Below, piece by piece: positions 695 to 22,690 of a stretch of 24,946 bases of DNA. Made by a program: the position numbers and the translations under genes. Position 1 is the stretch's first letter; each line of letters opens with the position of its first letter. Under the pieces are notes generated by a model that had not been told where the DNA came from, did no database searches, and saw nothing but the letters and a program-made list of their open reading frames with translations. The stretch lies in the IMG/VR virus record IMGVR_UViG_3300024324_000075, positions 1 through 24,946 of that record; one strand, given 5' to 3'. Source of the stretch: a virus.

Positions 695-1144
695 TTAATA
701 ATTAGTTTTTCATTTATTCCAAGGAATACATCATTTATTAGCTTCACTTATTTTTCTTCTATGTTCTTCTGAAAATGTTTTTCATAACATCCCATTTCTT
801 CATTTATTTTCTCTATCTTGCATATTATCTTTATGTGTTCAAATCCAAAGATTTGAAACCATATTATTTAATAGTCAGTTAATTGTCTTTTCGGAATAAT
901 GACAGACAGATAAAGAACTATCTATATCAAAATTTAAAAAAGCTTGAGCAACTAATCTATGAACAAAAAAATGTTTTTGTTTTTTATTTTTACTTAAATT
1001 AACCCTACTATATACTTTTTTTATATGAAATTTTCTTATTCTTTCTTTGTTTCTCCGCTTTCAATGTATTAAACTTTTTATCCTCCCATAACTACTAACT
1101 TGATATAATCATTCATATCATTTAATATCTTTCCATATTTCCAT
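695..1144 (-). CDS. HNH homing endonuclease with NUMOD4 and NUMOD3 motifs
   Basis: A 149-aa free-standing homing endonuclease. Residues 3-25 form a NUMOD4 motif (EIWKDIKGYEGLYQVSSYG), in which both glycines of GYEG are TGA codons. VHRLVAQAF (61-69), CH (81-82), NNMVSNLWIGT (93-103) and HKDNM (104-108) follow the HNH fold order. Residues 120-145 (GKTFSEEHRRKISEANKG) are a NUMOD3 DNA-binding motif. Such proteins cut DNA at a target site and spread by repair. The gene sits between the lysis-type genes and the partial peptidase gene. Its ATG at 1144 is preceded by AGATAAA and a structured leader (1161-1225). It has no good Shine-Dalgarno. It ends with TAA. Confidence 0.88.
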
Positions 1145-2031: not shown

Positions 2032-2430
2032 TTATTTAGTTATATTATATCCTTTCCCCCAAGCTACCCACCCTCAAATTCTTACTCAAAGATAATACAT
2101 AACCCTCTTTAATATAAATACATTACATAATTTTAGTATATTGTAAAATAAATCATCACAATCTACTCTTTCTTTTGTCTTAGTAGAATATAGATAATCA
2201 TGGATAACGGCACCGATTAATGTATCTGTAGCCATAGGAGTACCTATAATATAAAACACTCTTGGAATAGAAGCTCAGTTAAATATGAATCACTTAGGAA
2301 TATTTATAGTAGGTCATTCTCATTTAGTAATAATATAATATGTAAAATTTTCTAATAATACCCATTTATTTCTTCAAATAGGAGATATTTGTAATCTTTC
2401 ATATATTGATATTAAAGCTTCTCTTTCCAT
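2032..2430 (-). CDS. DUF1353 family phage protein
   Basis: A 132-aa protein matching the DUF1353 pattern: GFIFNGASIPRVFYIIG in the first half, then GAVIHDYLYSTK, then a C-terminal YYLGVRIGGWVAWGKGY. The family is common near tail and lysis genes of tailed phages, and its biochemical role is not established. Several of the conserved glycines (for example in PKGFIFNGAS and VRIGGW) are TGA codons, which supports the Gly reading. The ATG at 2430 follows the glycine-rich tail protein by 24 nt. There is no Shine-Dalgarno. It ends with TAA at 2032. Confidence 0.82.
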
Positions 2431-2454: not shown

Positions 2455-3309
2455 TTACATTGGAAACATAAAAAATCCAGCACTAGTATTTCAAGAACCT
2501 GCTGCTTCAACAGCTGTAAAAGTTCAACTAGAAGTAAATGTATGTATTGTTTGTCCTAATACTGTAGTAATAGTTCCTCCTGTACTATCAGTTGAAACTC
2601 AATCACTTCAATCGGTAGCGTAAGAAATTATGATTATTCAATTTCAACCATCTCATCAAGTTCCTCAATTATATCAAGCCCCTCATCCACCTCATCATAA
2701 TCAATCAGTTCAAGCACTTCAATTTCAATCATTTAAGTGATTTCAATTTCATCATCATCCATTACCTCAATCTCAAGCTATAGAAGTGCTAAATGAAGCT
2801 CATCAACCTCATCATCAACCTCAATAGAAAGTACTACTTCACGATATTGAATTGGCTATTCAATTTCAACCATCTCACGATTGAGCCGCATCTCAAGTTC
2901 ATCAAACAGCTCAAGCTCATCATCAACCTCAAGGTGACCAAGTATTACCTACGCCATCAAAAAATGCAACTCATCAATTATATCATTCTCAACTTATTCA
3001 AGTTCAAAATGCTCAAGTTTCAGGAGCAGCTCATCAACCACTACCTCAATTTTTTCAAGTAACACCATCAAAATATCCTCAACCTCATCAACCACTAGTA
3101 GATATACTATTAAAAGAGGAATTAGTTCAGTTAATACCTTGTGCAGAAGCTGTTCATCAATTTCATCAAGTTCATACTGTTACTGTAAGAGCTCCAAATG
3201 ATATTGAAGAAGAAGCTTCATATTTTAATCAACCAGCTCATCCTCAACCTCACATAGATCCTCAACCTCAACCTCATCAAGATATTATTAATGCTTTTAC
3301 ATTAGCCAT
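2455..3309 (-). CDS. Glycine-rich tail/adhesin protein with about 70 TGA codons
   Basis: A 284-aa protein built of glycine runs: an N-terminal LIISGGGGGG, repeated GGGGAGG, GDGGNG and GGGG(N/A)G blocks, STFYGGGGGGGASF in the middle, then GGTGGDGGNGIIIISYATDG. That last motif is characteristic of phage glycine-rich tail-tip or receptor-binding modules. A short C-terminal domain (TITTVLGQTIHTFTSSGTF) follows. I counted 69 TGA codons, often two or three in a row beside GGT/GGA. Read as Trp they would give an implausible Trp-Gly polymer. Read as Gly they rebuild a known protein type. It lies directly after the 1042-aa tail fibre gene, so it is probably a receptor-binding tip or fibre partner. Confidence 0.85.
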
Positions 3310-3331: not shown

Positions 3332-6300
3332 TTATGCTACTCATACACATCTCCATTTTGAAGTAACTGTATTCCAAGCAAATACTACATCTAATCTTGT
3401 ACTTATTACTGTTGTACTTGGCAATGTAACTGTAGAACTTTCAAAACTAGCTCCCCAAGTTATTGCTCTTGCTGTTCAATTATCAGTAATATCGACTCTT
3501 AACATATCTCATTCTACTGGAGTTCCTGAAAGATTAGTAGTAAATGATGTTATTGCTTGCGCTAATCATACAATATGTACCACATCTGTATTATCAGTAT
3601 TTATTGTAGGAATAGCTGCTTGTGTAATTGTGGGAGCTCTTTTTGTGTTTCTCTTATTAGTTACTGTAACAGTATTAGTTAGTGTACTAAAATCATCATC
3701 AGATAAAGCTATATTAAATTGAGCTGTTGTTCAAGTCAATGTATTGCTTGTAAGATTAATAGTTTTAGTAGTTAATGTAGCTGTAGCACTATTTTTTGTA
3801 GCATCACTAGTATTATCTACATTTCATAATCAAACATTTGTTGCAGTTACTGAATGTGGATTAGTAGTTGTATCTGCTATATGTGAATCTATTTGAGCGT
3901 GTGAGTTAGTTCAAACATCTGATAATCAAGTATGCGACCTATTAGTAATTTGTGTAATATTGTCTAAAGTAATATCATTTGGAACTTGTGCATCTGTAAC
4001 AGCTCAACCTAAACTAGATAAAGTTAAGTTTGCTTCAACAACATCAACATCAACTTCATCATTTCAAGTATCATCTGTTATTGTAATTTTAGAACTTCAA
4101 GCATTTAATTTCTTAAATTCTAGATCTACTCAAGTTTTTTGTTTAAATACTCAAACTCAAGCAGTTCAAACATTAGAAGCAGTATTAGTTTCTCAACCTC
4201 AAGCTGTAGGTAAGTTTCAAACTTGTACCATTTTCTTGTTATTGGCATCAGCGCTATCTTCTATAATTATCATATCTCAAATTACAGGAGTTCATTTTTC
4301 TGTAATTACTGATATTTCAGCAGCTACATTATCATGGATAGCATTTGTATCTGTTGTACCAAAACTTAAATTATCTATAGTGTCTAATGCTTTTTGTACA
4401 TCAGTATCAGCAGCACTTAGATTATTATTAAAGTTTGTTATATCTGTTTCAGTATTTAATGCTGAATTATCTATAAATTCTAAAGCTGTTTCTCAAGCAT
4501 TAGCTTGTAATATTTTATTAGCTTGTCATACATAACTACTAGGTACATCTGAAAGTGCTGTAAAATCTGTTACTCATCAACCACCTCAACCTCATCAAGC
4601 TATAGTATTAGGTATTTTACCTCTTAAATCTTGTGTATCTATTAATACATTTTCATTACTTTTAAGTGTAAATGTGAATCTAGCTATTAGGAATCAAACA
4701 GTAGTATAAAGGGCAGGAATATCATATACAGACTGATTATCTGCATCATTTACTGCATCTGTAGGAGAAGCAAAAGCATAACTACCTGTAGGTAAATTAG
4801 CCATTAAATGACAAGTCGTTCAAGTCTTATTTTGTATTCCCCAAACTACTATTGAATAAGAAGTATTGTTTAAACTTACTCATAAAGCATCTAATTGTTC
4901 AGCTCATAGATTTGTAACTTCTTTAAAAGCTGTAGTAGAGTCATTAACTATATGTAATGTATCTCAACTAGCCATATCTAAAGCTGGAAATACTTGGTCG
5001 TGTAATTGATAAACTACTCAAGAAGTATTTGCTATTGTTACTGTATCAGGTGTTCAAGTTCAAGTTCAAACTATAGCAGCACTTCAAGCAGCTCAACTTC
5101 TCCATTTTGGTGGCTCAAGTCTAAGCCTTTCTGATATATGTAATAAATGCCCATTATCTCAATCTGATTTTATATGATCATTTACATTTTGATTAACTAA
5201 TGCTCAATCAGTAACTGTTGCTGTAGCACTTCTAACTACTATATAAGCAACTTTAATATGTTCAGAAGCAGGAAAATCTGTTGTACTAACTGTTAGTACT
5301 TTAGTAGATAATGGAATATATATATAATTTTCTTGTGGATTAGTGTCAGTTCATTGTGTAAGAGTGATAGTTAAAGCAGGAGTTACATCTAATATAGTTA
5401 ATCCATCAGAAAAAATCATAGTTAAATCATTTGTAAGATCTGCATTTACTAAACTACCTGTAATAGTAGCACCATCAGAAGCTATAGTAAATTTTAAACT
5501 TTCTCTAAAACTTCAATCAAAAGCATCATTAAAAGTGTTTGATACAAAAGTTGTTTGATTTACTCAAATTGTTCAATCAGCAGCGGCAGTTTCTACTATA
5601 CCCATTTCTATTGAATAGTTTGGAAATACAGGCTTTGTTTGAGTAAATTCTCAAGCATTTGTTGGAGATATATATATTGGCTCTCAAGCGGTAAACAAAG
5701 ATGTATCTACCCCTCTTACTTTACCAAATATAGTCATTGCTCAAACTCATCATATAGCAACTTCTGTCGTAGTCATAAATATAACTCAACTAATATTATC
5801 TACTAAATCAGCTTGTGCTAATACGAATCAAGTAGGAGATGGTTTTACGAAACTTCAGTTAGGTATTATACTACCTGTAGTATTAGTAAAAACATTACCT
5901 AATTCTTGTCAAAGTTGTATTGAATTTCATAAATCAGTATCTAAATCTAATGTATGGTCTGCTGCACTCCATCTAAGTCTTCAATCTGTGTGTGTAGTCG
6001 AAGCAGGAGTTAAATCAAAATCAGCACTTTCAATATTCTGTAATATTCAAGTATCTGTTTCAGTAACTACTCAATTATCTACTACTGTTCAAGTTGTAGA
6101 ATCAAATCTAACTAAAGCATTATCTGTAGCACTAGCAGGTCATAATGTTGAGCCATCTAGTTTAATTTCATCAGTAGTCGTAAATGATGCTGTAGTAGCA
6201 TCTAAAACAGCTTTATTACTATGTGTATGTCTAGCTGAAGTATTTGCTGCTACATCAGTATTTGCAGAAACTTTAACTTCAGTATAATATTCATTAGTTC

Positions 6301-6460
6301 ATTCTGATAGATCAGAAGTTGTCTTATCTCAGAATATAGTAGTTCATACTTCTGTAATTGTAGCGTCTTTTAAAGCATTAGAATCTGCTGAATCTGCTAA
6401 TGGTAATATATCTCATCATACAGGTGTCTTACCTGTAGTATCTGTTGGGAAAATAGTCAT
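3332..6460 (-). CDS. Large tail fibre / host-specificity protein
   Basis: A 1042-aa beta-rich protein high in Thr, Ser, Asp, Asn and Gly. It has collagen- or collar-like recurring phrases: LTMIFSDGLTILDVTPALTI, YIPLSTKVLTVST, and HIKVAYIVVRSATATVTDGA. A run of eight glycines (NTIAGGGGGGGG) comes about two thirds along, followed by VTDFTALSDVPSSYVGQANK and LQANAGETALEFIDNS. The C-terminus (LSGTPVEGDMLRVDITDNG, ITWGASFESS, KWRCVGVA) resembles the fibre-end modules of many phage tail proteins. It probably forms the trimeric fibre that binds the host surface. It is the largest gene in the window. Many glycines are TGA codons. The start is ATG at 6460 and the stop is TAA. Confidence 0.8.
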
Positions 6461-8419: not shown

Positions 8420-11362
8420 TTATTTTATAAATTCATCAAAATCAGTATTTGTAGGAGTTGTACTTATTGTTTTACTTCTAAAAGAAGTTCAAGTAGGTGT
8501 TGTTCATAATTTAAATTCAGGGAATAATTCATTAAATAAATCAATATCATTTAATTTAGTTCTAGCTCTTATTGTTCCTGATTTAACTGTAGACCCTCTA
8601 AAGCTTTCTAACATATTTGTAAATCTTTTAGGATTATCTTTTAATTGTGGTAATTGTGCTGATAATCTTACATATTCAGGTTCAGATACAGCAACTCAAC
8701 TTATAGATTTTACATAAGCTGCTAACATTTTACCTGTTAATTGATCTATTCTAGTAAGTGTTCAATCTCATATTTCATCTCAAACTCTTTTAGCTATAGC
8801 ATTTCATGCCGCTGTAGTTAATCAAGTATCAACATCTAAATCACTAAATAAGTCTTGTATAACTGTAATTTGTTCCTGTACATCTAATGCAGGTGCTAAT
8901 TCATCAAATATAGCCTTGTCTCATAAAATAGCTTGCCTTATTTGATTTTTTAAAGGACTTAAATCTCAATCTCATAAAGCTGATTCTCAAATAGCTCTAT
9001 TAAAATTCTTAACTTGTTCTTTATCAGAAGTCTTAGAACTTTCTCAAGTAACTTCTTCAAATTTTCTAACTAAATCTATGTTATCCTGTCTAAATTGTTC
9101 TATTTTAGTTCACATTTCACTAACTAATCAAACATCAGCTCATAGCTTTGTTTTAGTCGTTTTATCAATAGTATCTGCTCATAAGAATAAATCTATTGCT
9201 GTATTTCTAGCTAATCTATCAGTAACAAAATCCGTATCCGCAATAGCCTCTGTAGTTCACATAAATTGATTTGGGTCTATCCAATTTCAACCTCTTAATG
9301 CAAAACTTCAGTTATCAGATACTCTGTAATCTAAATGACTACCATCTCATCATTCTCATTTAACTACTGTTCAAGTATTTCACATTTCAGCTATAGTTTG
9401 TCCTCTTTTTACTTCATCTCAAACATGTACAGCTGAAGCATTTAAGTGATTATAAACATGTTGATTTCAGTCAGTATCTTCAATAACTATTCTTCTACCA
9501 AATCATCCACTTTCATTTGCTTCTTGTAGAGCAATAACTTTTCAATCTGAAAAAGAGCTAATTATATCTCAAATTTGTCCATCTATATCTATTCATGGTG
9601 TTCATGTTGTTCAATCTGCTAATTTAACATTATCTCTAGTTACAGGAGAAGTTGCTCCATAATTTTGAGTAACAGTTCATGTTCAAGTTTGAATAAATGA
9701 TGTTGGAGTGACTCACTCTGTTCAATCAGCAGGTTTAAATTCAACTTCTCATGTATTAGGATTAAAAACCATTAATCATCAAGATGTAGAAAATCATTGA
9801 AATGCTTTTTTATTTAATTCATTTTGTTTCTCTAAATAAGCTAATTTATAAGATTGATCTTTAGCTGCCGCCACATCTCAATCTTTAATAGCTTGTTTCC
9901 TAGCTTCTTCAGCTCTAGTTATTGACTCTTCTAATAATTTATCTTGTCTAGTTATATCTTCTTGTCTGATAATATCGGTTCTAGTTGTTCAATATAAAGT
10001 ATCTATTAATTGATTCTTTTGATCTAACATAGACATATTAAATTCAAATTCAGCTTTATCTTGAGTATCTGCATATTGATAATCAGCCATTTGATTAGAA
10101 TAAGTTCTTTGTAATGCAAATAATTCATCATCAACAGCCTCTGTTTCATCTCTAGCGATTTTTAATTGAGTAGATAAAGGTAAATTAGGATTCCTTTTTT
10201 TTACATTATCTAATATTCTTCTTTTTTCTACATTTAATTCATCAATCTGACTAGCTGTGTCTTGAGATAATTTTCTTAAATTATTAGTTTCTTCTGTTCA
10301 AGCTTTATAAGTAGAATACATAGTTTCTATGTTTTCAAACATATTAACTTTTGTATCTAAATAATCTTTATCTAACTTTTCCAAAGTTGTTGAATTTTCT
10401 TCTGCTTTAGTTGTAGAAGTTACTGTAGTTTCTCATCAAAAACTCTTATATAATTCTAATGAATTATTATTAATAGAGTCTGTTTTAATTGATGTTTCAT
10501 ATTCCGCTGAAGCCATTAACATAGCAGTTGTTGGTTCTCATCAATTCATTTTAATTAATCTATTCCATGTTTCTCAACCGGTAGCAATTTCATTTGACTT
10601 TAATCATTCTAAATAAATATCTGAAGTAGCTCATTTATATTTAGAATATTTCTTAAAAACAGCAGATGCAGTAATAGCCTCTCTGCTTCATTCTTTAAAT
10701 TTAGCTGAAGTTCAAAATTGATTAATAATATCTAATGCTTCATCAAAATTAGATGGATTAAAAGTAATTCATCATTTTTGATCTATATCAAAAGAAATTC
10801 AAGCATTTTTAGCAAAAGTTTCTTTTTCATTATCCACTATTCATAAAGATTTTCTTATAGGATTTCAAGCCGAATCTATTATCCATTCAAATCTTTCCCC
10901 ATCTCTTATTCAAGTAACTTTATTTCAAACTACCTGTACATCTTCAGTAGTAGTAGTTGGAGAATTTTCTAAAAAATTAGCTAAATTATCTACATTACTT
11001 CACGCAGTCTTAAATTCCCCTAAAGTTTTTATTTCTAGTGGCTTCTCTTCAATTTTTGGTTCTTCAACTTTAACTTCTTCGATTTTTGGTTCTGTGATTT
11101 TTGGTTCTGTAACCTTAACTTCAGGAGGAGTAATAACTTCCCCTGAAGTTAAGTCTGTTGTAATTTGAGATTTATCTTCTGATTTAACTCATTCTGTTGG
11201 AGTTGGCTCTTTAATAGTGTCTGTAGGAGCTTTAGCTCATTCCACTCATCTATCAGTTAAGGTTTGATTAACTTTATCAGCTCAAAACTTATCAATAGCA
11301 GCTTGTACTTTTGTTTTATCTAAATCAGAAACTTGTTTTATTCAATTATTCTTTTCAGGCAT
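8420..11362 (-). CDS. Large virion protein with degenerate M23 (LytM-like) peptidase domain
   Basis: A 980-aa protein. Residues 75-110 are a Glu-Pro-Lys repeat region (VTEPKITEPKIEEVKVEEP). Residues 330-520 are strongly helical or coiled-coil (TRAEEARKQAIKDG). Residues about 585-695 follow the M23 metallopeptidase order: TPGIDIDG, FSDGKVIAL, VYNHLNAS, VHVGDEVKRGQTIAEMGNTG, GSHLDYRVSDNG, WIDPNQF. The HxGxD zinc motif has Thr588 in place of His, though Asp592 is kept. The HxH motif reads H676-L-D678. It is therefore probably catalytically weak or inactive. The C-terminal region is helical. It may be an internal virion or tail-lysin-type protein acting at cell-wall penetration. TGA supplies many of the glycines, including that in PGID. 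Confidence 0.78.
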
Positions 11363-11401
11363 AATCAATTTGTGAGTTATTAATTAAAGTATATTTATTT
11401 C

Positions 11402-12322: not shown

Positions 12323-13753
12323 TTAATCTATATTAGAATATATAAGTTGTATTTCATAAAGTTTAGGTGTAGTAGTTCAATCTGATATAAAATTAATCTT
12401 AAACGCTATATCAAAAAATACATCTTTTTTAGAATATACTTCTGTTTTAGTAATACTTGTTCATGCTATAATAGTTTCAGCAGAAGTAAATGATCATCAA
12501 TCTATACTATATTGTAATTCTATTGTATTATCAACATCACAATCACTTGTAACTAATTTAATTTGTTCTATTTTCTTTTTTTGTATCCTACTTCATCAGT
12601 CTATGATATTTGTTTGTAGGTATCAACTAGGTTTATATGTAGGAGTAGTTGTATTTACATCTATATATTCCATAAATGTTCAGGCTCATGTTTCTATTCA
12701 TATATATAGTCTATCTGTAGCTGTTAATTCTACTCATTTAATAGCGCTAATAGTAGAAATTTGTGTGTCTAAACTATCTTTTGAATAAGGAATATTAAAT
12801 CATTTACTTAGTGTTGGATTTCATGTCCCATATGAAACTAAATCATCAGAAGTTATCCCATCTTGTACAAAATATAATTGATTAGATAATCTTCATCATT
12901 GATTAGTTTGTGAATAAGTGATCTTAAATAAGTAATCTCATAATCTTTCACTATCTCTAGTTAAAAGTAAATCTTGTATAGTATATCAAGTTAGCACTTT
13001 AATTTTTGATTGAAAATCACTCTTTCATGCTAATATATAATCAATTTTACCATCATTAATTACTCATCTAACAGCTTCTTGTACTTCTAAAAATGAATCT
13101 ATAGAACCTGTCTCTCAATCCCAAAATGCTATTGTTCAATTTTCTGTATAAACTTTAAATACTCAACCTGTTCTTGTTAATCATACTATTTCTCAATCCC
13201 ATATATCATAATTTGTAACTATATCATCTTGGTCTACTACAGATACTAAATCTCCATTTCATAAGTAAAACTTAGTATTTAATAAAACAACTACAGGATA
13301 AATATTGGCTGAAGTTGTTATACTATCTCAAGTAGTAGTTATATTCTCTGATACAGTTCATGTCCAATTATTGGCTGCAGCATTAGCTATTGTAATTCTA
13401 TTTAATGGACTAGAATTATTAGTTAGAAAATATAAATATCCATTAAATTGCCAAGCATTTAAAGCTTGATTTCATAAAGTATACTTTAATATTCAAGTGC
13501 TAGCATCATATATTTCTCATCAATCACAATATGCAAAAGTATTACTTCATGCTGTTATAAATCAATTAACTTGTGCAGCAGTAGTATATCTTCATTCTGA
13601 GTCTTTATTTAAACTTACATAGTAACTATTAGTATTCAAATCTAAATTCTCTGCATACAATACTTGTTTTCAAGTAGTTAAAAAATCATCCTGAGATATT
13701 CCTCAAGTGAAGTTTTTAAGGTTTATTCAAAAATGATTTGTTTCAAATGCCAT
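12323..13753 (-). CDS. Propeller/nozzle-like tail protein
   Basis: A 476-aa beta-rich protein with repeated sheet-turn units of the type NGYLYFLTNNSSPLNRITIAN, LLNTKFYLGNGDLVSVVD, GGVFKVYTENGTIAFWDG and INDGKIDYILAGKS. The C-terminal part (GYLQTNIIDGGSRIQKKKI then ELQYSIDGGSF) resembles a domain seen in phage tail nozzle/propeller proteins. Its position after the adaptor gene suits a short-tail nozzle or stabilisation protein similar in role to P22 gp10, which is an inference. It starts at ATG 13753, 1 nt after the adaptor stop. Gly-Gly turns are often TGA-TGA. Confidence 0.68.
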
Positions 13754-13754
13754 A

Positions 13755-14486
13755 TTATAATAGGTTAGGCTCTATAACTATGCTAGGAGATTCTCTATCT
13801 ATAGGATAATCCATATATAATGGACTAATATTCCTATCTGATAATTCCTCAGTAGATTGCTTTCTTTGTCTAATATATTCTTGTTTTTCTGATATAGATT
13901 CTTGTCATTTCCCCATAGCTTTATATATATATGGTAAAATTCATTGAACTAATACTTCATGATGATCTATAGGAATAACCATCGCAGATTCAGTAGTAGT
14001 AGTTTCATAATCTACTATTTTTTTAATTCATTTTAATTCTATTCATGCTGCAGTAGTTGCTGTAGGCATAGGTGCTACAAAAATACTATTATCAGCTATA
14101 TAGTAAATAGGAAATTCTTTATCTTGATTATTTTTATAATAACTCCAATTTCTTTTTAATGATGATAATTTAATCGGTTTAGCTTTTATGTATTTTAATC
14201 CTCAATCATCATAAGTTTCATTATCATAATTAACCGATACACTTGTAACTTTTTTACTTCAAGCTGAGTCGCTAGCCATTAATGGTAATACATATTCATC
14301 TTGATCAGCTACAGTATCAGTAGTGAAAATATCCCAATCATAATCTTCACTTATAGAAGAAACGATATAACTCCAAAAATTATTCTTAACTATGTTTAAA
14401 TATTTAAGAACTTGTGCATCAGGGAATTGTGTTGAATTAGTATGAGATTGATCTCTTGCTAAATCTAATATATCAGATACATCCAT
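13755..14486 (-). CDS. Head-tail adaptor (connector) protein
   Basis: A 243-aa protein. The N-terminus MDVSDILDLARDQSHTNSTQF, followed by PDAQVLKYLNIVKNNFW, matches the helical start typical of phage head-tail adaptor proteins (a D-I-L-x-x-A-R helix, then a pattern of x-D-x-x-x-L-x-x-x-N). The middle contains YVLPLMASDS, KRNWSYY and FPIYYIADNSIFVAPMP, and the C-terminal part includes HHEVLVQGILPYIYKAMGK. Adaptors bind below the portal and lead DNA to the tail. The order (MCP, small protein, adaptor, nozzle) agrees. A hairpin precedes the start, whose context is TTAAATAATTATG without Shine-Dalgarno. Confidence 0.75.
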
Positions 14487-14750: not shown

Positions 14751-14782
14751 CAAAAAAAAATGAACTAGATAGATTTAGTTCA
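14751..14782 (-). terminator. Intrinsic terminator overlapping the HNH stop codon
   Basis: The minus-strand RNA UGAACUA pairs perfectly with UAGUUCA across an 8-nt loop (AAUCUAUC), followed by a run of nine U. The TAG stop of the 277-aa HNH gene forms the start of the second arm, so terminator and gene end are fused. It would end the HNH transcript and limit read-through into the 50-aa gene. Confidence 0.8.
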
Positions 14783-15598
14783 TTTTTGTAAATTTGCAGT
14801 TGCTGTGAGAATCTGTAGATTAAATGGTGAATGTAAACCTCATTTAGAAAGAGGTATAATGTGATCAACATGGTATTTTTCTTGAAATATATCTTCCATT
14901 ACTTTTGCTAACTTGTAAAAAAAGGAAGTATTAGATACTGTTACCCAAAATGGTGTTTGATTTAATTTCCTATTTTGTCTGATTCTAACAGATGCTAAGT
15001 GTTTTTCAGGATTTTCTCTTTTCCATTTTCTTCAAGCTTCTAATAATTTATCACGATTTTTAATTCTAAATTGTTTATGTTTTAATTTAAGTAATTCCTT
15101 ATTTTTATTTCTGTATATTTGTTTTTTATATTTTACTTCATCTATATTATTTAAAACATAATTTCTATTTCTTTCAGAAATTTTTTCTTTATATTTTAAA
15201 TAATATAATTTTTCTTTCTTTTTAATAGATTCTAAATTATTTTTTCTATAATTCTTAGCAATATTTATTAATTTCTCTTTATTATTTTCCCTATATTTTT
15301 TACCTTGTTCTCTTATTTTTATAATATTATTTTGTCTATAAATTTTTTGCTTTATTATTAACTGTTCTAAGTTTTGTTTTCTATATTGTTGTCATAATTC
15401 TTTTATTTTCTCTTTATTATCCTCTCTATATTTTTTTCTTTGTTGTTGTATTTTAATATTATTCTTAGCAGTATATTTTGCTCTTATATGTTTTTGACAA
15501 TCTTTACAATTATATCACCTTCAATTAGGTCTTCTATTATCTTTTATAAAGTCTTCTAGTTTTTTATTTACCTTACATTTTGTACATATTTTTCCCAT
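14765..15598 (-). CDS. HNH endonuclease with N-terminal zinc finger
   Basis: A 277-aa protein. Four cysteines at residues 5, 8, 31 and 34 (CTKC ... CKDC) form a zinc finger. Residues 40-215 are very rich in Lys, Tyr, Asn and Ile with repeats of the type KYRENNKEKL, probably a long basic helix touching DNA. The C-terminus HVDHIIPLSKGGLHSPFNLQ then LQKGTKSI is a canonical HNH nuclease, with the second Gly of KGG and the Gly of QKG both TGA codons. It lies just after the major capsid gene, a favoured site for phage homing endonucleases. It has its own leader structure and its own terminator. The base composition is extremely AT-rich, even against its neighbours. Confidence 0.9.
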
Positions 15599-15613
15599 AT
15601 TTTTTAAAAACAA

Positions 15614-15677
15614 AAAAACCAACTCATTTAGTGGAATGAATTAGTTTTTAACTAAGTATAAATACTTACTCCACTAA
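15614..15677 (-). promoter_or_regulatory. Predicted pseudoknot leader / attenuator-like hairpin of the HNH gene at 15598
   Basis: On the minus-strand RNA a 15-bp hairpin forms between 15649-15635 and 15628-15614 (with G-U pairs), and its loop is CCACUA. The loop plus the next base (CCACUAA, 15634-15628) is the exact complement of UUAGUGG at 15677-15671. A small hairpin AAGUAUUUAUACUU (15667-15654) sits between them. A run of U follows, then the ATG 16 nt past the stem. Without the pseudoknot it would look like a simple terminator after the capsid gene, but that gene already has one at 15722-15755. Confidence 0.6.
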
Positions 15678-15777: not shown

Positions 15778-16947
15778 TTATGCTTCAGCAGCTTGTGATA
15801 CGATTTGTAAATCATAAATTCTCTCAGCCCCCTCAGAAAAAGTCTTAATTCAATATCTAGCCCAAGTCATATATCTTACTCCAAGTTGTTTTTGAACATC
15901 TTGTACTTTAAGAGATACTTCTTTTTGCATTACTAAATTAATTGCTCCTCTTTCCATAATTAAATTATGAATAGTAACAGCTTGAAAATCATTAGCAGCA
16001 GCAGTCATAGAAGTAGAAGCTACTTTGTAACCTCTTTTAGATTCAATTAATACTTGATCAGTACCATCAGTTGCAGTAATTCATTCCATTTTAGATCTAT
16101 CAGCAGTAGATAATTCTACATATTTAGTTCATGGAGTAGTCCCATTAATCGCAGCAACTAAATTTGTAGCCGATTCATCAGCAGTACCACCAATATCTAC
16201 ATCTCAAGCAAGAGCAGGAGAAGCAACATATGTAAATACTACACCATTAACAGTAACGGTATTAGTAGCAGTTGGATTAGTAGCTAAATCTAAAACATAG
16301 TCAGCAGTTAGATTTGTAGAAACAACTATAGCCATATTTTGAAAATCCCCTCTGTAACCTTTTTTAAATGAAGCATCAGCTACTTTAAAAGTATTACCCA
16401 AAGAAGCTACCCCTATTGTAGATAATTGAAAAGGATCAATAACAGCAACAATGTTTGAACTATCCACACCATCATTTACTAATTGTGCGAAAGTATTACC
16501 ATAAGTTTCTACAGTATTACCTGAAGCACCAGTAGTTAAAGTAATTGGAGCAGCAGAAGCATTATTAGCATTAGAATATTCGTTAAAGAAGTTACCTTCA
16601 ATATCTTGTTTAATTCTATAAGCTGCTTTTGGAGCAGCAGATGCAACAACATCATAACCATTATCAAGATTATCAACATCATCATAAACAAAAGTTACAA
16701 TAGGAGTTTGATTAATTACTAATTGTTCATTAGAAAAATTTAAGTCTTGATCTGTAACATCTGTATATTTTTCGTACGATTGTACATTTTGAAATTCTGG
16801 TCTTGGAAAGTTAATAGTATTCCCATCAGGCATATTAGCCATAAGAGTAGTATTAGCTAAATCCATAGCTACTAGAGTATCTTCTAGTAATGCTTGAACC
16901 AATTTCGTATATTTCTGTTTATTTAAAACAGATACTGAATTAGCCAT
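15778..16947 (-). CDS. Major capsid protein (HK97-fold type)
   Basis: A 389-aa protein. The N-terminus is MANSVSVLNKQKYTKLVQALL. Then come GNTINFPRPEFQNVQSYEKY, the beta-strand LVINQTPIVTFVYDDVDNLD and KAAYRIKQDIEGNFF, a combination common in podovirus and siphovirus coat proteins where DDVD is followed by a long helix. It ends YGIKTFSEGAERIYDLQIVS, the usual strand at a coat C-terminus. It follows the scaffold gene and precedes a strong terminator. The first 247 codons hold no TGA although they contain about 12 glycines, and only four TGA occur in the rest, unlike the tail genes. The start is ATG at 16947 with an AT-only upstream region. Confidence 0.85.
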
Positions 16948-16998
16948 AATAATATGTATTAAAATTTAAAGTTATTTGGTTTTAATACTACTATTTTC

Positions 16999-17565
16999 CT
17001 ATCTAATTTTTCCTTTAAGTCTTTGGTATTCCAAATACTTGTCATTAGGAAGCTTTAAAGCCTCTTCATCAGTTAAATCAGCGAGTTTTTTCCTTACTTT
17101 AACATTAGAGCTTTTAGAACTAAAATCATTGCTAGAACTAGACTCTGTAGGAATTTTAGCTTTTACTAAAGTAAGCGCATCTTCAAAAGACATGTTTGGA
17201 TATTCGTCTAAGGTAGCTTCCATTTGATTTTTATATTCTTTAGCTTCAGGATTTTCTATAGTGAAAAACCTAAACTCTGTCTTATCAAAACCAGTAGAAT
17301 CATCCTCAAATTCATCTTCCTCATCTTCTCAATCACTATCGTTATTAACTAATTTAGCTTTTAAGTCAGCGATTTCTTTATCTTTAGCTTTCATAGCTTT
17401 AGACATCTTTTTCCAATTACTTTTTTTACCTTTAGTAGAGGATGTATTTTCCTCGTCTTCATTTTTAACTTTCGTAGAGGTAGAAGATTCTTCCTCATTA
17501 GTTTCTACTATAGTTTCGTCTTGATCAGCAGACTCATCTATTAGTTCAAAATCTAATTCTGACAT
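16999..17565 (-). CDS. Scaffolding protein
   Basis: A 188-aa, highly charged protein without hydrophobic core segments. Acidic and Ser/Thr-rich residues 1-45 are followed by a Lys-rich coiled-coil helix (MSKAMKAKDKEIADLKAKL), an acidic patch (EDEEDEFEDD), and a basic helical C-terminus (VRKKLADLTDEEALKL then KYLEYQRLKGKIR). This composition directly upstream of the coat gene is typical of phage scaffolding proteins, whose basic C-terminus binds the coat during prohead assembly. Only one Gly codon is TGA. It ends with TAG and the coat ATG comes 51 nt later. A pair of long inverted repeats sits just upstream. Confidence 0.8.
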
Positions 17566-17588
17566 AATTTAATATGTTAATGTTAAGG

Positions 17589-18153: not shown

Positions 18154-20058
18154 TTATTGATTAGATATTAAACTAGAACTTTCATTAGCTATTTGACTCA
18201 TTCATTGTGCTCATACATTATTTTGTACTGATTCTGAAACCTCAGTCATTTGTTGTTCCTTATCTCAGCCTTGTGCTTTATATAAATCTAATAAAGATTG
18301 TCTATAAACCATTGTGTTCAATTCTTGTGGAGCAGCTTTTATAGCAATTAAATGTGTTAATGGATCATAATCAGATTTAACTTCAACAAATTCTCAATAA
18401 GTTAATGCCTCTACATTTTCAATAGCTATTATCTCTTGTGGAGTTAATGGTATTTCTATCTCTACTTGTGCCTCAGGGATTCATGAACTTGTAAGAAATC
18501 TTCTATATGAATAATTCTGTGCAGCCTTAGGTCTTTCTAATGTTTGTAGTAATGGTAGAGTATTTGCATAAGCTACTCTCTCTTTATCTTTTCTTTTATC
18601 TAATTCAGCAACAGTTATAACTTGTATTCTAACAAATTTCTCTGATAAGAAATCTTTTCTTTTTAATTCTCTAGGAATTATTCAAAATCAAGTATTAAAA
18701 TTAACTATTTTTGTATCTCAATCAGTAAATTTTTCTAAATATCATCTTAACCATAAATTTAATAATTGCTTCTCTCCCCAACTCTCTACCTTAGAAGATA
18801 AAGCTAAATTTACATCAGTATTTGATTGGATTAATTCATTAGTTCATACACCCTCTCTTCTTTCAGTAGTAGAACCTTGTGCTATCTTCCCTACAGAAGT
18901 AGATGCCTCTACTTGTCTATCTAAACTATCATCTACTATATATGAATTATCAGCTCTAAAATCTCTTTGAATTGGAGTAACAGCGTTATTTAAACTCTCT
19001 CATTCTAATGGATTAGCTGCTACTAATTTATTAAATCAGAAATTTAAGTCTTCTTTATTCTTAATTAACCTAGTATTGTACATATACATAGGATAAAGCT
19101 CAGCCATTGATTTATCTAATCTTAAATTAGCCATCAGCGCCTTAACCCTCTGAACATCACTTATAAATGTAGCAATTCTATCTCCAAACGGATTACTAGT
19201 TCTTGGTTTCCGATATGTGAATGCAAATGGAAATGGTATTAATTGATTATCTTTTTTCTCTTTATTATCTATCGTTTTTAATAATTCTCAGTCTACAATA
19301 GTTTTTTGTTCATTCCCCATTGTAAACATAGCCTTTACAGTAGCTTTTGGTCATACAAATATTCAAAAATGTGTATAAATTTTGAAATTTGGATTATCTG
19401 AATTTCCTTGTTTATACGATGTGTTTAAATCTGAATTAACCTGGTCATCCGATCTACTTCTATCACTTCATCTAAAATCTCATGTACTTGGATTTAATTG
19501 CTCTATAATCTTATCACTATATCATAAATTTTCTAAATCTGTTTTAAACATTTGTTTGTCAAAACCTGTATATGAATAATTTCCATTCACATAATCCCCA
19601 TCAGGGTCAGGAATCCAATTTCTAGGATCAACAGTTTCAAATTTAGGACTCTTAGTAATTCCACACCATCAAATTTTTGCAACTATACCAACTCAATAGA
19701 AAAATTTATCCCAATCTCTTTGGTATTTTAATATTTCAATATCTTGTTCGTTAAAATCTTCCTCTAAAGTAGCATTTAAATTTTTCACTATATAATCTCT
19801 ACCTATTTTTGTAGAAATAAATTTTGACTGAGGTCTGTCTACATAACTTCTAGCCATTAATGCAGAATGCACATTGAAAAGAGTAGTATCTCAAATCTTA
19901 TCCTTATTCTTTTTTTGATTATTAAATAATCTCATATCTGTTTCAAAAATTTCTCTTTTTTTTGTAACAAATCTATATCATCTCTCGTATTCTGAAGATA
20001 TTTGTGATATAATATCCTCCTTCTTTAATCAAGTTGCTTTTAAAATATCTTTTAACAT
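18154..20058 (-). CDS. Portal protein
   Basis: A 634-aa protein of the length of podoviral-type portals. Recognisable segments: KKREIFETDMRLFNNQKKNK near the N-terminus, WDKFFYGVGIVAKIGWCGI, FETVDPRNWIPDPDGDYVNG (the 'VDPR..I.DPDG' wing motif common in portals), RVKALMANLRLDKSMAEL (stem helix), and a C-terminal helical barrel (KAQGGDKEQQMTEVSES). It forms the dodecameric DNA channel at one capsid vertex. It follows the large terminase by 37 nt, the classical order. The start is ATG at 20058 and the stop is TAA. Around twenty glycines are TGA codons. Confidence 0.82.
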
Positions 20059-20095: not shown

Positions 20096-21805
20096 CTAAT
20101 ATACAGATAAATCAAGTTCTTTTTTCTCCTCTTCTTCTCATTCTATTAAAAACTTCAATAATTCATCTTGATCTATTTCTTTTTGAGATTTTGAGTTGAT
20201 AATATCTTCTTCAGAAATATTTCCATTTGAATGTTCCTTTATAAGATAATACATTCTCATTGAAATCATGTCAGCAAGGTCAGGCGAGTGTCATAGCTCT
20301 TCTTTCATATCACTCTTTGGTACTATCTGTAACTTACTATCATTCACAACATCTTTCTCTTTCACAGTTAATAATTCTTCTATTATCTGCTCTTTTTTAT
20401 CATTATCTGTAGTAATAGTAATTAATGACATATATTTCTGAAGATAATAGAATGCTTGTGTCCTTAAATTAGCATAATTCCTCTTTTTGTATTTCAATAA
20501 CTTAGCCGAATACGGATGAATAGCCTGAGTATTACCAATAAATCATTTACAACCTAACATATCAACTAATCCTCATCAAACACCAATTTCATCTATTAAT
20601 ATATTATCTATAGGGACAGCAAATTTAGCCTGCAAAGTCTCTATCTTATTAGCCTGGGTTACTAAGTCAGCCTTAGGAATAGTAATAATATCTTTTAAAT
20701 GTAATCATTCAAAATATCAAATCTCAGTACCATCTTTACCTAACCTCGCAGCATCCACAATTAAAAACGGAGTTGTATCACCCTGATATTCCCTCGTGAA
20801 CATACCTTCTATAGTATTTGAATCATATAATATATTAGGAGAGTCATCAAAATCAAAGTTACCATACAATAATCTCTGCTTTCTTATAGAACTATCAGGT
20901 AATCTCTCTAATCTCTCTATATATTTAATATCTACCCATGGATTATCCCCAACCTTAGATGGTATAAATTCCATATAAGAAGGTAATTGCTCCTGTTTCC
21001 ATGGACGATAAAATTCTGACCTAGTAAAATTAGTTCCTGGATTACATCCTGTAAATGTACAACCTTTAAAATTCCATGAATATGTGTGAATAAGTTTGTT
21101 CTTTATTATTTCCGATTTCATTAATTTGTACGGAATTCTAAGCATCTCTTTCCTCACAATATAACATATCCTTCCTCAATCTAAAATTTCCTCTAAAATA
21201 TCATCCTTATTAAGTGTACACTCCTTCTCGTCCCTAACAGTCTGACCTACTATCTTAAACTCAACCTCCCATCATGGTTGTATTTGCTCCTCAGTATAAT
21301 CCTTATACTCTATAGGTACTTCTGTTTGAAAACTACCATCCAATTCACTCAACCTACCTGATAATACCTCCCTAACCTTATTTGACATTTGTTGCCCCTC
21401 ATCTAAAAAACCACCACTATATCAATATGATCATATCCTATCAAACTCAGGATCTCATGGCTCTAAATTTACCTGTATCACATATAATTTACTCTTATTA
21501 ATAAATTCTATATGCCTCTCATCCCTAATTTTATCCCTATAACTCTTCTCGTCATATCAAAATCTCCTAATAACATTATAAAATGTATTAAGTGTAGTCG
21601 CCTTTAAATCAGCAAGCACAGTTCTAGCTAATAACCAAGAACTACCAGGAAATGCAGATAAACATATAGCTAATATCATACCTATAGTCTCACTCTTTCA
21701 TCATCTTGCCGCACCACCGAAAAGTATATCCTCAGTCTCGTCATTAAAAAAACATTGAATCGCCTTAAATTGTTTCTCTGATGCTAGTAGTGTGTTTTTA
21801 ACCAT
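20096..21805 (-). CDS. terL: Terminase large subunit
   Basis: A 569-aa DNA-packaging motor. The ATPase domain has Walker A GGAARGGKS (residues 30-38) with the adjacent Gly35-Gly36 pair both TGA, and Walker B GGFLDEG (131-137, catalytic Glu136). CNPGTN (254-259) is the coupling motif. The nuclease domain has LIVDAARLGKDGTEI (348-362, Asp351), ILIDEIGVGGGLVD (402-415, Asp405, with Gly410 and Gly411 as TGA), and HSPDLADMISMRMYY near 507-521. These invariant positions prove both the family and the genetic code. It is translated from ATG 21805 overlapping the upstream gene by 8 nt (ATGGTTAA), and stops at TAG. Confidence 0.97.
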
Positions 21806-22124
21806 TATTATTAACTATGTTAATTGTTATATTTGCAGGTATTAATTGTGTATTCTTATCATCATCCAATCCTAATAGTTTTAAATTACTTTTAAAAGCA
21901 CTGTCTTTAGCACTAACTATATCAGTTATCCTTAATGATCAATCTTGATGCTCTAATCTCTCTATTAAATTTTTATCAGCTAAATTAATGATTCTCTCAT
22001 TCTGCTTAATAGTATATAACTCAGATGAAGTATCTTCTGTAAGTGAAATGTCCGTGGGGTCGTCTTGAAATGAATCAAGAAATTGTTGAGCCTCCTGTTC
22101 TGTTAATGTCTCTTGATTAGTCAT
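21798..22124 (-). CDS. Putative terminase small subunit
   Basis: A 108-aa acidic protein starting MTNQETLTEQEAQQFLDSF. A second ATG 27 nt upstream (22151) is in frame but lies inside the HNH gene, so 22124 is preferred. The C-terminal half (LIERLEHQDGSLRITDIVSA, then KDSAFKSNLKLLGL) recalls the oligomerisation part of small terminases, which often end with a K-L-L-G type helix. No helix-turn-helix is clearly visible. The strongest argument is position: it overlaps the large terminase start by 8 nt. It has a single TGA codon. Confidence 0.6.
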
Positions 22125-22135
22125 AGTGTGTGAAG

Positions 22136-22690
22136 TTAATAATATTCCCATTTAAATCCTCATGCTGTCTTTTGTTTTCATCTACAAACATCTCAAACAT
22201 GACTTATTCATAAATCTCTTATAATATCAGCTATACTATACCATTTTTTAATAAAATCTCAATTTTTTGTGTATTGACTTATTTTTTTACTAGAATTATG
22301 ATACTTTCAAAACTTTCATAAAGAACTCCTTGGATGATTAGTTTGAAATATTGTCTTGTTTCATAAAATTCTATAAGAATGCTTTTGATTATCGCTATGA
22401 GTACAATATTCAAGATTATTTAAATTATTATTAGATTTATCTCAATCTTTATGATTAATTTTGATTCCCTTTAAACGATATCAAATAAATTCATTCATCA
22501 CTAAAGAATGAATAGTGTGAGCTTTTATAGTTCAATTATTATATAAAATAACTTGCTTATATCATCTAGTGTCTCCATGACTTAATACTCTCTGAGTATT
22601 TGAGTTTTTTACTCTACCATAATTTGATATTTGATATGATCAATTATAAATCACCTGCTTAATATAAGTAATATCTCTCCATTCTTCCAT
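22136..22690 (-). CDS. HNH homing endonuclease with NUMOD4 and NUMOD1 motifs
   Basis: A 184-aa free-standing endonuclease. NUMOD4-like residues 3-28 (EWRDITYIKQVIYNGSYQIS then NYGRVKN). HNH residues 78-104 (INHKDGDKSNNNLNNLEYCT then HSDNQKH), with the Gly of HKDGD as TGA. NUMOD1-type helix-turn-helix at 137-182 (ISQYTKNGDFIKKWYSIADI, then GKQKTAGGFKW) that reads DNA specifically. Gly177 in AGGFKW, at a conserved spot, is TGA. It sits between the iteron region and the terminase genes, and its last bases run to 12 nt before the small terminase start. It has its own promoter-like and pseudoknot leader. Confidence 0.92.

Follow-up and report, generated by a model that had tools for sequence, protein, structure and literature searches.

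Evidence for glycine at TGA, and apparently for tryptophan at CGG, in a clade of tailed phages

The window, by which we mean the whole stretch of DNA that was analysed, comprises the 24,946 bp of IMG/VR record IMGVR_UViG_3300024324_000075. It is linear, lacks a terminal repeat, has a GC content of 27.5 per cent and carries practically every gene on its minus strand, where we counted 23 complete genes and one truncated at the left end of the window. The window is a fragment of a tailed phage and probably covers about two thirds of the genome, consisting of the structural module with a few genes on its flanks, because relatives with terminal direct repeats measure 36 to 39 kb (39,004 bp in the case of G005, which has such repeats).

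The large terminase subunit (TerL) is encoded at 20096..21805 (minus strand, like all genes described here unless stated otherwise) in a frame of 569 codons that begins with ATG, ends with TAG, contains 15 in-frame TGA and matches phrog_979 (E 1.4e-11). Two of these TGA (21698-21703, codons 35 and 36) lie in the Walker A motif GGAARGGKS and two (20573-20578, codons 410 and 411) in the nuclease motif GVGGG; the coordinates of the gene and the two TGA in each motif are just as a sequence-only reading of this DNA had given them. This TerL resembles those of Flavobacteriia/Bacteroides phages. The 117-aa gene directly upstream of it (21798..22151) likely encodes, by its position, the terminase small subunit; it has homologues in eight relatives, and a family search returned no match for it. 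The portal protein (18154..20058; 634 aa, 23 in-frame TGA; PF23899 SU10_portal, E 4.8e-9) is the marker gene for the code-25 phage family, with 33 relatives. The module further contains genes of the major capsid protein (15778..16947; 389 aa; phrog_267, E 2.2e-12), of a SU10-type head–tail adaptor (13755..14486; 243 aa; PF24175, E 1e-8) and of a structural-module protein with homologues in 13 relatives (12323..13753; 476 aa, 37 TGA). Both SU10-type families score above their cut-offs (35.6 bits over 30 for PF23899 and 36.3 over 27 for PF24175) and are common to the window and the Escherichia phage SU10-type podoviruses, to which the likeness is remote in sequence and known here from sequence alone. 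Searches of 50,697 phage records gave no tblastn match for the portal and capsid proteins, and no match for the tail or injection protein with an M23 peptidase domain (8420..11368; 982 aa, 66 TGA; PF01551, E 1.8e-17).

The left part of the window encodes a tail- or fibre-like protein (3332..6460; 1,042 aa, 65 TGA), whose long frame is open only with TGA as a sense codon, a glycine-rich tail protein (2455..3309; PF21722 Gly_rich_2), in which TGA would supply 69 of the 101 glycines, a DUF1353 protein (2032..2430; 7 TGA; PF07087, E 8.3e-17) and a NUMOD4/NUMOD3 homing-endonuclease protein (695..1144; 9 TGA). A NUMOD4-HNH-NUMOD1 homing endonuclease (22136..22690; 13 TGA; PF13392, PF07463, PF07453) adjoins the terminase genes, and an HNH endonuclease (14765..15622; 6 TGA; PF13395, phrog_1035) is situated between the capsid and adaptor genes. 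The family matches identify as real domains the HNH, NUMOD4, DUF1353 and glycine-rich motifs to which the sequence-only reading had pointed. Genes of the homing-endonuclease type thus number three in the 25 kb of the window (695-1144, 14765-15622 and 22136-22690); homologues of the one at 22136-22690 adjoin TerL in G005 and G009 too, and the one at 14765-15622 seems to be a local insertion between the capsid and adaptor genes. On the plus strand, a 198-aa frame (16976-17572) is open antisense to an acidic gene (16999-17565). The antisense frame is open in G009 as well, where it is 57 per cent identical, and probably shadows the conserved gene on the opposite, minus strand.

Over the 24 genes, we counted 432 in-frame TGA codons, 189 GGN and 54 TGG, and gene stops comprise 19 TAA and 4 TAG. 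It had been claimed that all 28 genes are intact and stop only at TAA or TAG; the intactness and the stops hold, and the gene count is that given above. The share of the minus strand covered by ORFs of at least 60 aa is 10 per cent under code 11, 20 per cent with TAG open, 29 per cent with TAA open and 89 per cent with TGA open, and this contrast of 89 to 10 per cent matches a trait of code-25 phages. The longest run free of TAA and TAG spans 1,042 codons, compared to a median of 129 and a maximum of 220 in 300 shuffles of the window. ORFs of code 11 are broken throughout the window, as they would also be in an assembly artefact, a frameshifted sequence or a decayed prophage, but every gene is open once TGA is sense, only TAA and TAG serve as stops, and contigs near-identical to the window were recovered from two other metagenomes. 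The relatives refute this explanation, to which we assign the smallest probability of any that we considered.

To score the residue encoded by TGA, we masked TGA as X and aligned five proteins of the window with standard-code homologues from sequenced phages, with profiles built from the homologues alone (the TerL alignment additionally took in a TGA-free contig, L007). Glycine at TGA yields the highest profile score (831 bits), ahead of serine (792) and alanine (785), and tryptophan yields the lowest of all 20 residues (726). In the standard-code homologues, the TGA columns hold 173 residues, of which 79 are glycine and none is tryptophan; the sequence-only reading had proposed that TGA is read as glycine and had named mostly-tryptophan TGA columns as the observation that would contradict it. 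All six homologues have glycine in the TerL columns of codons 35, 125, 410 and 505, and five of the six have it in the columns of codons 367, 411 and 421. A likelihood computed within the family, from code-25 relatives, places glycine 157 log units ahead of the next residue across 236 TGA sites of the window. Among close relatives TGA exchanges with GGN and almost never with TGG; for instance, the 23 TGA sites of the portal gene correspond to 16 GGN and 5 TGA in G005.

Individual domains differ in how clearly they speak. The Gly_rich_2 domain scores 62.3 bits with glycine at TGA and 19.1 with serine, and is not matched at all with tryptophan, arginine or X; the NUMOD4/NUMOD3 protein scores 55.8 bits with glycine vs 41.9 with tryptophan. 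In the DUF1353 protein taken by itself, phenylalanine, histidine, tyrosine and glycine score alike, and the HNH endonuclease at 14765..15622 slightly prefers serine. Because of these two proteins, the case is best placed on the sum of the scores together with TerL, the endonuclease at 22136..22690, NUMOD4 and the glycine-rich domain. On the alignments, glycine is strongly supported as the reading of TGA in the window and its family.

The same data bear on code 4, in which TGA is tryptophan and which a mycoplasma-like phage, or any phage of a code-4 kind, would use. Since neither code 4 nor code 25 treats TGA as a stop, the length of ORFs cannot separate them, but tryptophan is the residue that fits worst at TGA and is absent from the 173 residues. 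Moreover, tryptophan occupies the TGG columns whereas glycine occupies the TGA columns, which bears out the earlier statement that TGG still encodes tryptophan. Code 4 is refuted by the alignments and retains only a minute probability.

Searches of IMG/VR with TerL, capsid and portal proteins recovered about 30 contigs, and almost every one of them shows the TGA pattern of the window. The sequence-only reading had considered phages with verified recoding of TGA to glycine to be few; this portal family alone tells against such scarcity with about 30 code-25 contigs, and Liu et al. (2023, PMC10746230) had already reported dozens of code-25 phages. The relatives used in the comparisons include G004 (IMGVR_UViG_3300023112_001117), G005 (3300033153_008390), G006 (3300033143_002720), G007 (3300033153_004061), G008 (3300027996_001800), G009 (3300037805_000804) and G010 (3300027972_000043), as well as L149, which lies within 3300032260_000009, and L163 and L182, which lie within IMGVR_UViG_3300046313_000544. 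The nearest relatives compatible with the standard code, L007 (TerL about 35 per cent identical) and L170 (portal about 26 per cent identical), have almost no in-frame TGA. L007 (contig 3300011013_000122) shows no sign of TGA stops either in about 20 genes, a feature shared with the phages that Liu et al. (2023, PMC10746230) found to be compatible with code 11.

A second codon of the window appears to depart from the standard code in its clade, which we define as the window, G004, G005, G006, G008, G009 and L031. For this comparison, CGA and CGG were masked too, and the residues filling their columns were scored. In the clade, nine of ten CGG sites fall in columns that are at least half tryptophan and none falls in an arginine column, although the ten sites are not all independent, as the window and G004 share the portal site. 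The corresponding fractions are 186/284 for TGG, 1/1,148 for AGR and 0/42 for CGY, so that AGA, AGG, CGT and CGC pooled occupy a tryptophan position at 1 of 1,190 sites. The mean tryptophan share is 0.70 for CGG and 0.61 for TGG, compared to 0.002 for AGR and 0.000 for CGT/CGC. Summed over the window, G005, G008 and G009, the log odds of tryptophan over arginine are about 39. G009 contributes 18.7 log units from four CGG sites, all of them tryptophan, one of which corresponds to a TerL tryptophan conserved in five standard-code phages.

The window itself has two CGG codons, one of them at a conserved position, and gives 5.6 log units in favor of tryptophan over arginine. The conserved one is codon 283 of the portal gene (19210..19212), in an aromatic column that holds 21 tryptophan, 6 tyrosine and 2 phenylalanine but no arginine in the relatives; the other, codon 30 of the NUMOD4 protein (1055..1057), is uninformative alone. 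The portal CGG is not a sequencing error, because it is shared by L002 and G004, which come from two other metagenomes. The window has no CGA, and the five CGA sites in the clade include none at tryptophan, few that are informative and some that lean to arginine. Considered across the clade rather than in the window alone, CGG appears to be tryptophan, and table 25 is for that reason probably not the whole code of the phage; of the code-25 assignment made earlier, the glycine at TGA stands and the completeness of the table probably does not.

Under plain code 25, TGA would be glycine and CGG still arginine, and the CGG codons would be ordinary Trp-to-Arg mutations. The mere two CGG codons of the window are compatible with this, as are sister branches that also read TGA as glycine and clearly read CGA and CGG as arginine. 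CGA and CGG are located on arginine columns in G010, L155, L157, L163, L164, L165, L167, L168, L171 and G007, and in the arginine-reading branches none of 24 CGG sites and none of 222 CGA sites is mostly tryptophan, in counts per contig and per clade that are independent of a low-/high-GC group split chosen after the data had been seen, but whose W-called and R-called sets are defined by the call itself. Mutation of individual codons does not account for the clade, where CGG sits on tryptophan columns and the other arginine codons practically never do. In addition, the identical portal column has turned to CGG in two distant lineages, the second being represented by the distant relative L161. 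We regard plain code 25 as unlikely, and CGG as tryptophan as the reading that fits the clade.

In two other distant code-25 relatives, L122 and L123, both CGA and CGG are found at tryptophan columns. On the portal tree, the clade of the window forms one group whose members are either called W or allow no call, and the tree requires at least four changes between W and R, a provisional figure given that L149, L161 and L169 are called from single sites. It is likely, in our judgment, that one family tracks its hosts through several codes, with TGA as glycine throughout the core, CGA and CGG as arginine on some branches, CGG as tryptophan on that of the window and both CGA and CGG as tryptophan on another.

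How these codons are decoded was approached through release factors and tRNAs. No release-factor gene was found in the 28 contigs searched, the window included. No UGA-reading tRNA was found in the window, which lacks the early half of its own genome, and in the complete relatives G005, G007, L162, L165 and L166 (all with terminal repeats) ARAGORN found no UCA tRNA, the sole tRNA detected being a tRNA-Gln in G005. Decoding is probably carried out by the host, because the complete relatives yielded neither a release factor nor a tRNA-Gly(UCA).

Alternatively, the host could use the standard code, and the phage could switch it by means of a suppressor tRNA or its own release factor, as do the self-recoding phages summarised in PMC10746230, which likewise use a stop codon as sense. 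The window covers its genome incompletely, and one relative (L163/G021) carries a 76-nt tRNA with anticodon UCA and a short variable loop (L182 1342-1417), next to genes that are, by eye from their translations, YopX-like and DNA methylase-like. This tRNA has G1:C72, C2:G71 and U73, and looks like a phage-borne candidate tRNA-Gly(UCA), although its third acceptor pair is A:U, as opposed to the G3:C70 criterion in PMC8629427. Against a switch by the phage, the complete relatives lack both a release factor and a detectable UCA tRNA, which sets them apart from the self-recoding phages. TGA is also not confined to late genes: in the complete G005 it occurs in early genes (primase, helicase, methylase and recombinase) and late genes alike, and this density in early genes led us to reject a late-gene code switch. 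A switch by the phage would also leave unexplained a sense-codon change like that of Absconditabacteria. We consider such a switch very improbable. A phage-borne tRNA-Trp(CCA) was also observed, at L172 7969-8042 on the contig of L149, whose one callable CGG site is tryptophan.

The simplest reading is that the host already reads UGA as glycine and CGG as tryptophan. A code-25 host is what TGA as glycine naturally points to, and from the code as a whole we infer an Absconditabacterium or a CGG-recoding Gracilibacterium. Very likely, the window would then be the structural half of a tailed-phage lineage of about 39 kb that lives in a host with two code changes, in which UGA would presumably be decoded as glycine by a host tRNA-Gly(UCA), with RF2 absent, and CGG as tryptophan by a host tRNA that decodes CGG and carries tryptophan. 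In looking for a host link, alignment of the capsid against genome contigs gave no relative, and a search with a pattern designed for tRNA-Gly(UCA) came back empty; the pattern is probably too strict, because the phage tRNA of L163 has a different acceptor stem.

There is precedent for phages of this kind. In Absconditabacteria and Gracilibacteria, Liu et al. (2023, PMC10746230) identified phages and prophages that use code 25, along with code-11-compatible ones; they tested code 25 against 11 only, linked hosts via spacers and did not mention CGG. The window resembles their code-25 phages in its dense in-frame TGA, its almost complete lack of code-11 genes, its TGA as glycine and its origin in IMG/VR; it differs in that CGG as tryptophan is added here and the host is not spacer-linked. 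We found no earlier report of CGG as tryptophan in a phage among open-licence PMC papers, a scope that may miss a report in a subscription journal or preprint. For bacteria, Shulgina and Eddy (2021, PMC8629427) predict that Absconditabacteria read TGA as glycine and both CGA and CGG as tryptophan, and some Gracilibacteria read CGG as tryptophan (PMC8629427). The clade of the window shares with the Absconditabacteria code TGA as glycine, CGG as tryptophan, arginine dominated by AGA and a very rare CGG. Unlike in that bacterial code, where CGA is tryptophan too, CGA is nearly absent from the clade, with few sites and none of them tryptophan, and Gracilibacteria with CGG as tryptophan may be the better fit. 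L122 and L123 fit the full Absconditabacteria code.

For a phage, following a change in a sense codon is harder than following one in a stop codon, because translation does not end but puts wrong residues into every protein. A family whose related genomes span the CGG change bears on how, and how often, phages cross a code boundary, and makes it possible to ask whether the code of a host shields it against phages. In practice, proteins of such phages annotated by table 25 carry the wrong residue at CGG, and what CGG encodes offers a sequence-only clue to the host. If the family does track the codes of its hosts, no virus before these would have been shown to follow a host in reassigning a sense codon, and the way in which a phage reads CGG would be a fingerprint of the host lineage.

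The use of TGA for glycine is uneven among genes. In the capsid gene of the window, TGA makes up 4 of 24 glycine codons (17 per cent), compared to 72 per cent elsewhere in the window, and in G005 its share is 8 per cent in the capsid gene and 55 per cent in the rest of the genome. All 28 capsid genes compared use TGA for glycine less than the rest of their own genome does, which suggests that TGA is still disfavoured for glycine in the gene with the highest expression. This avoidance in all 28 phages is a hint of poorer translation of UGA-Gly relative to GGN.
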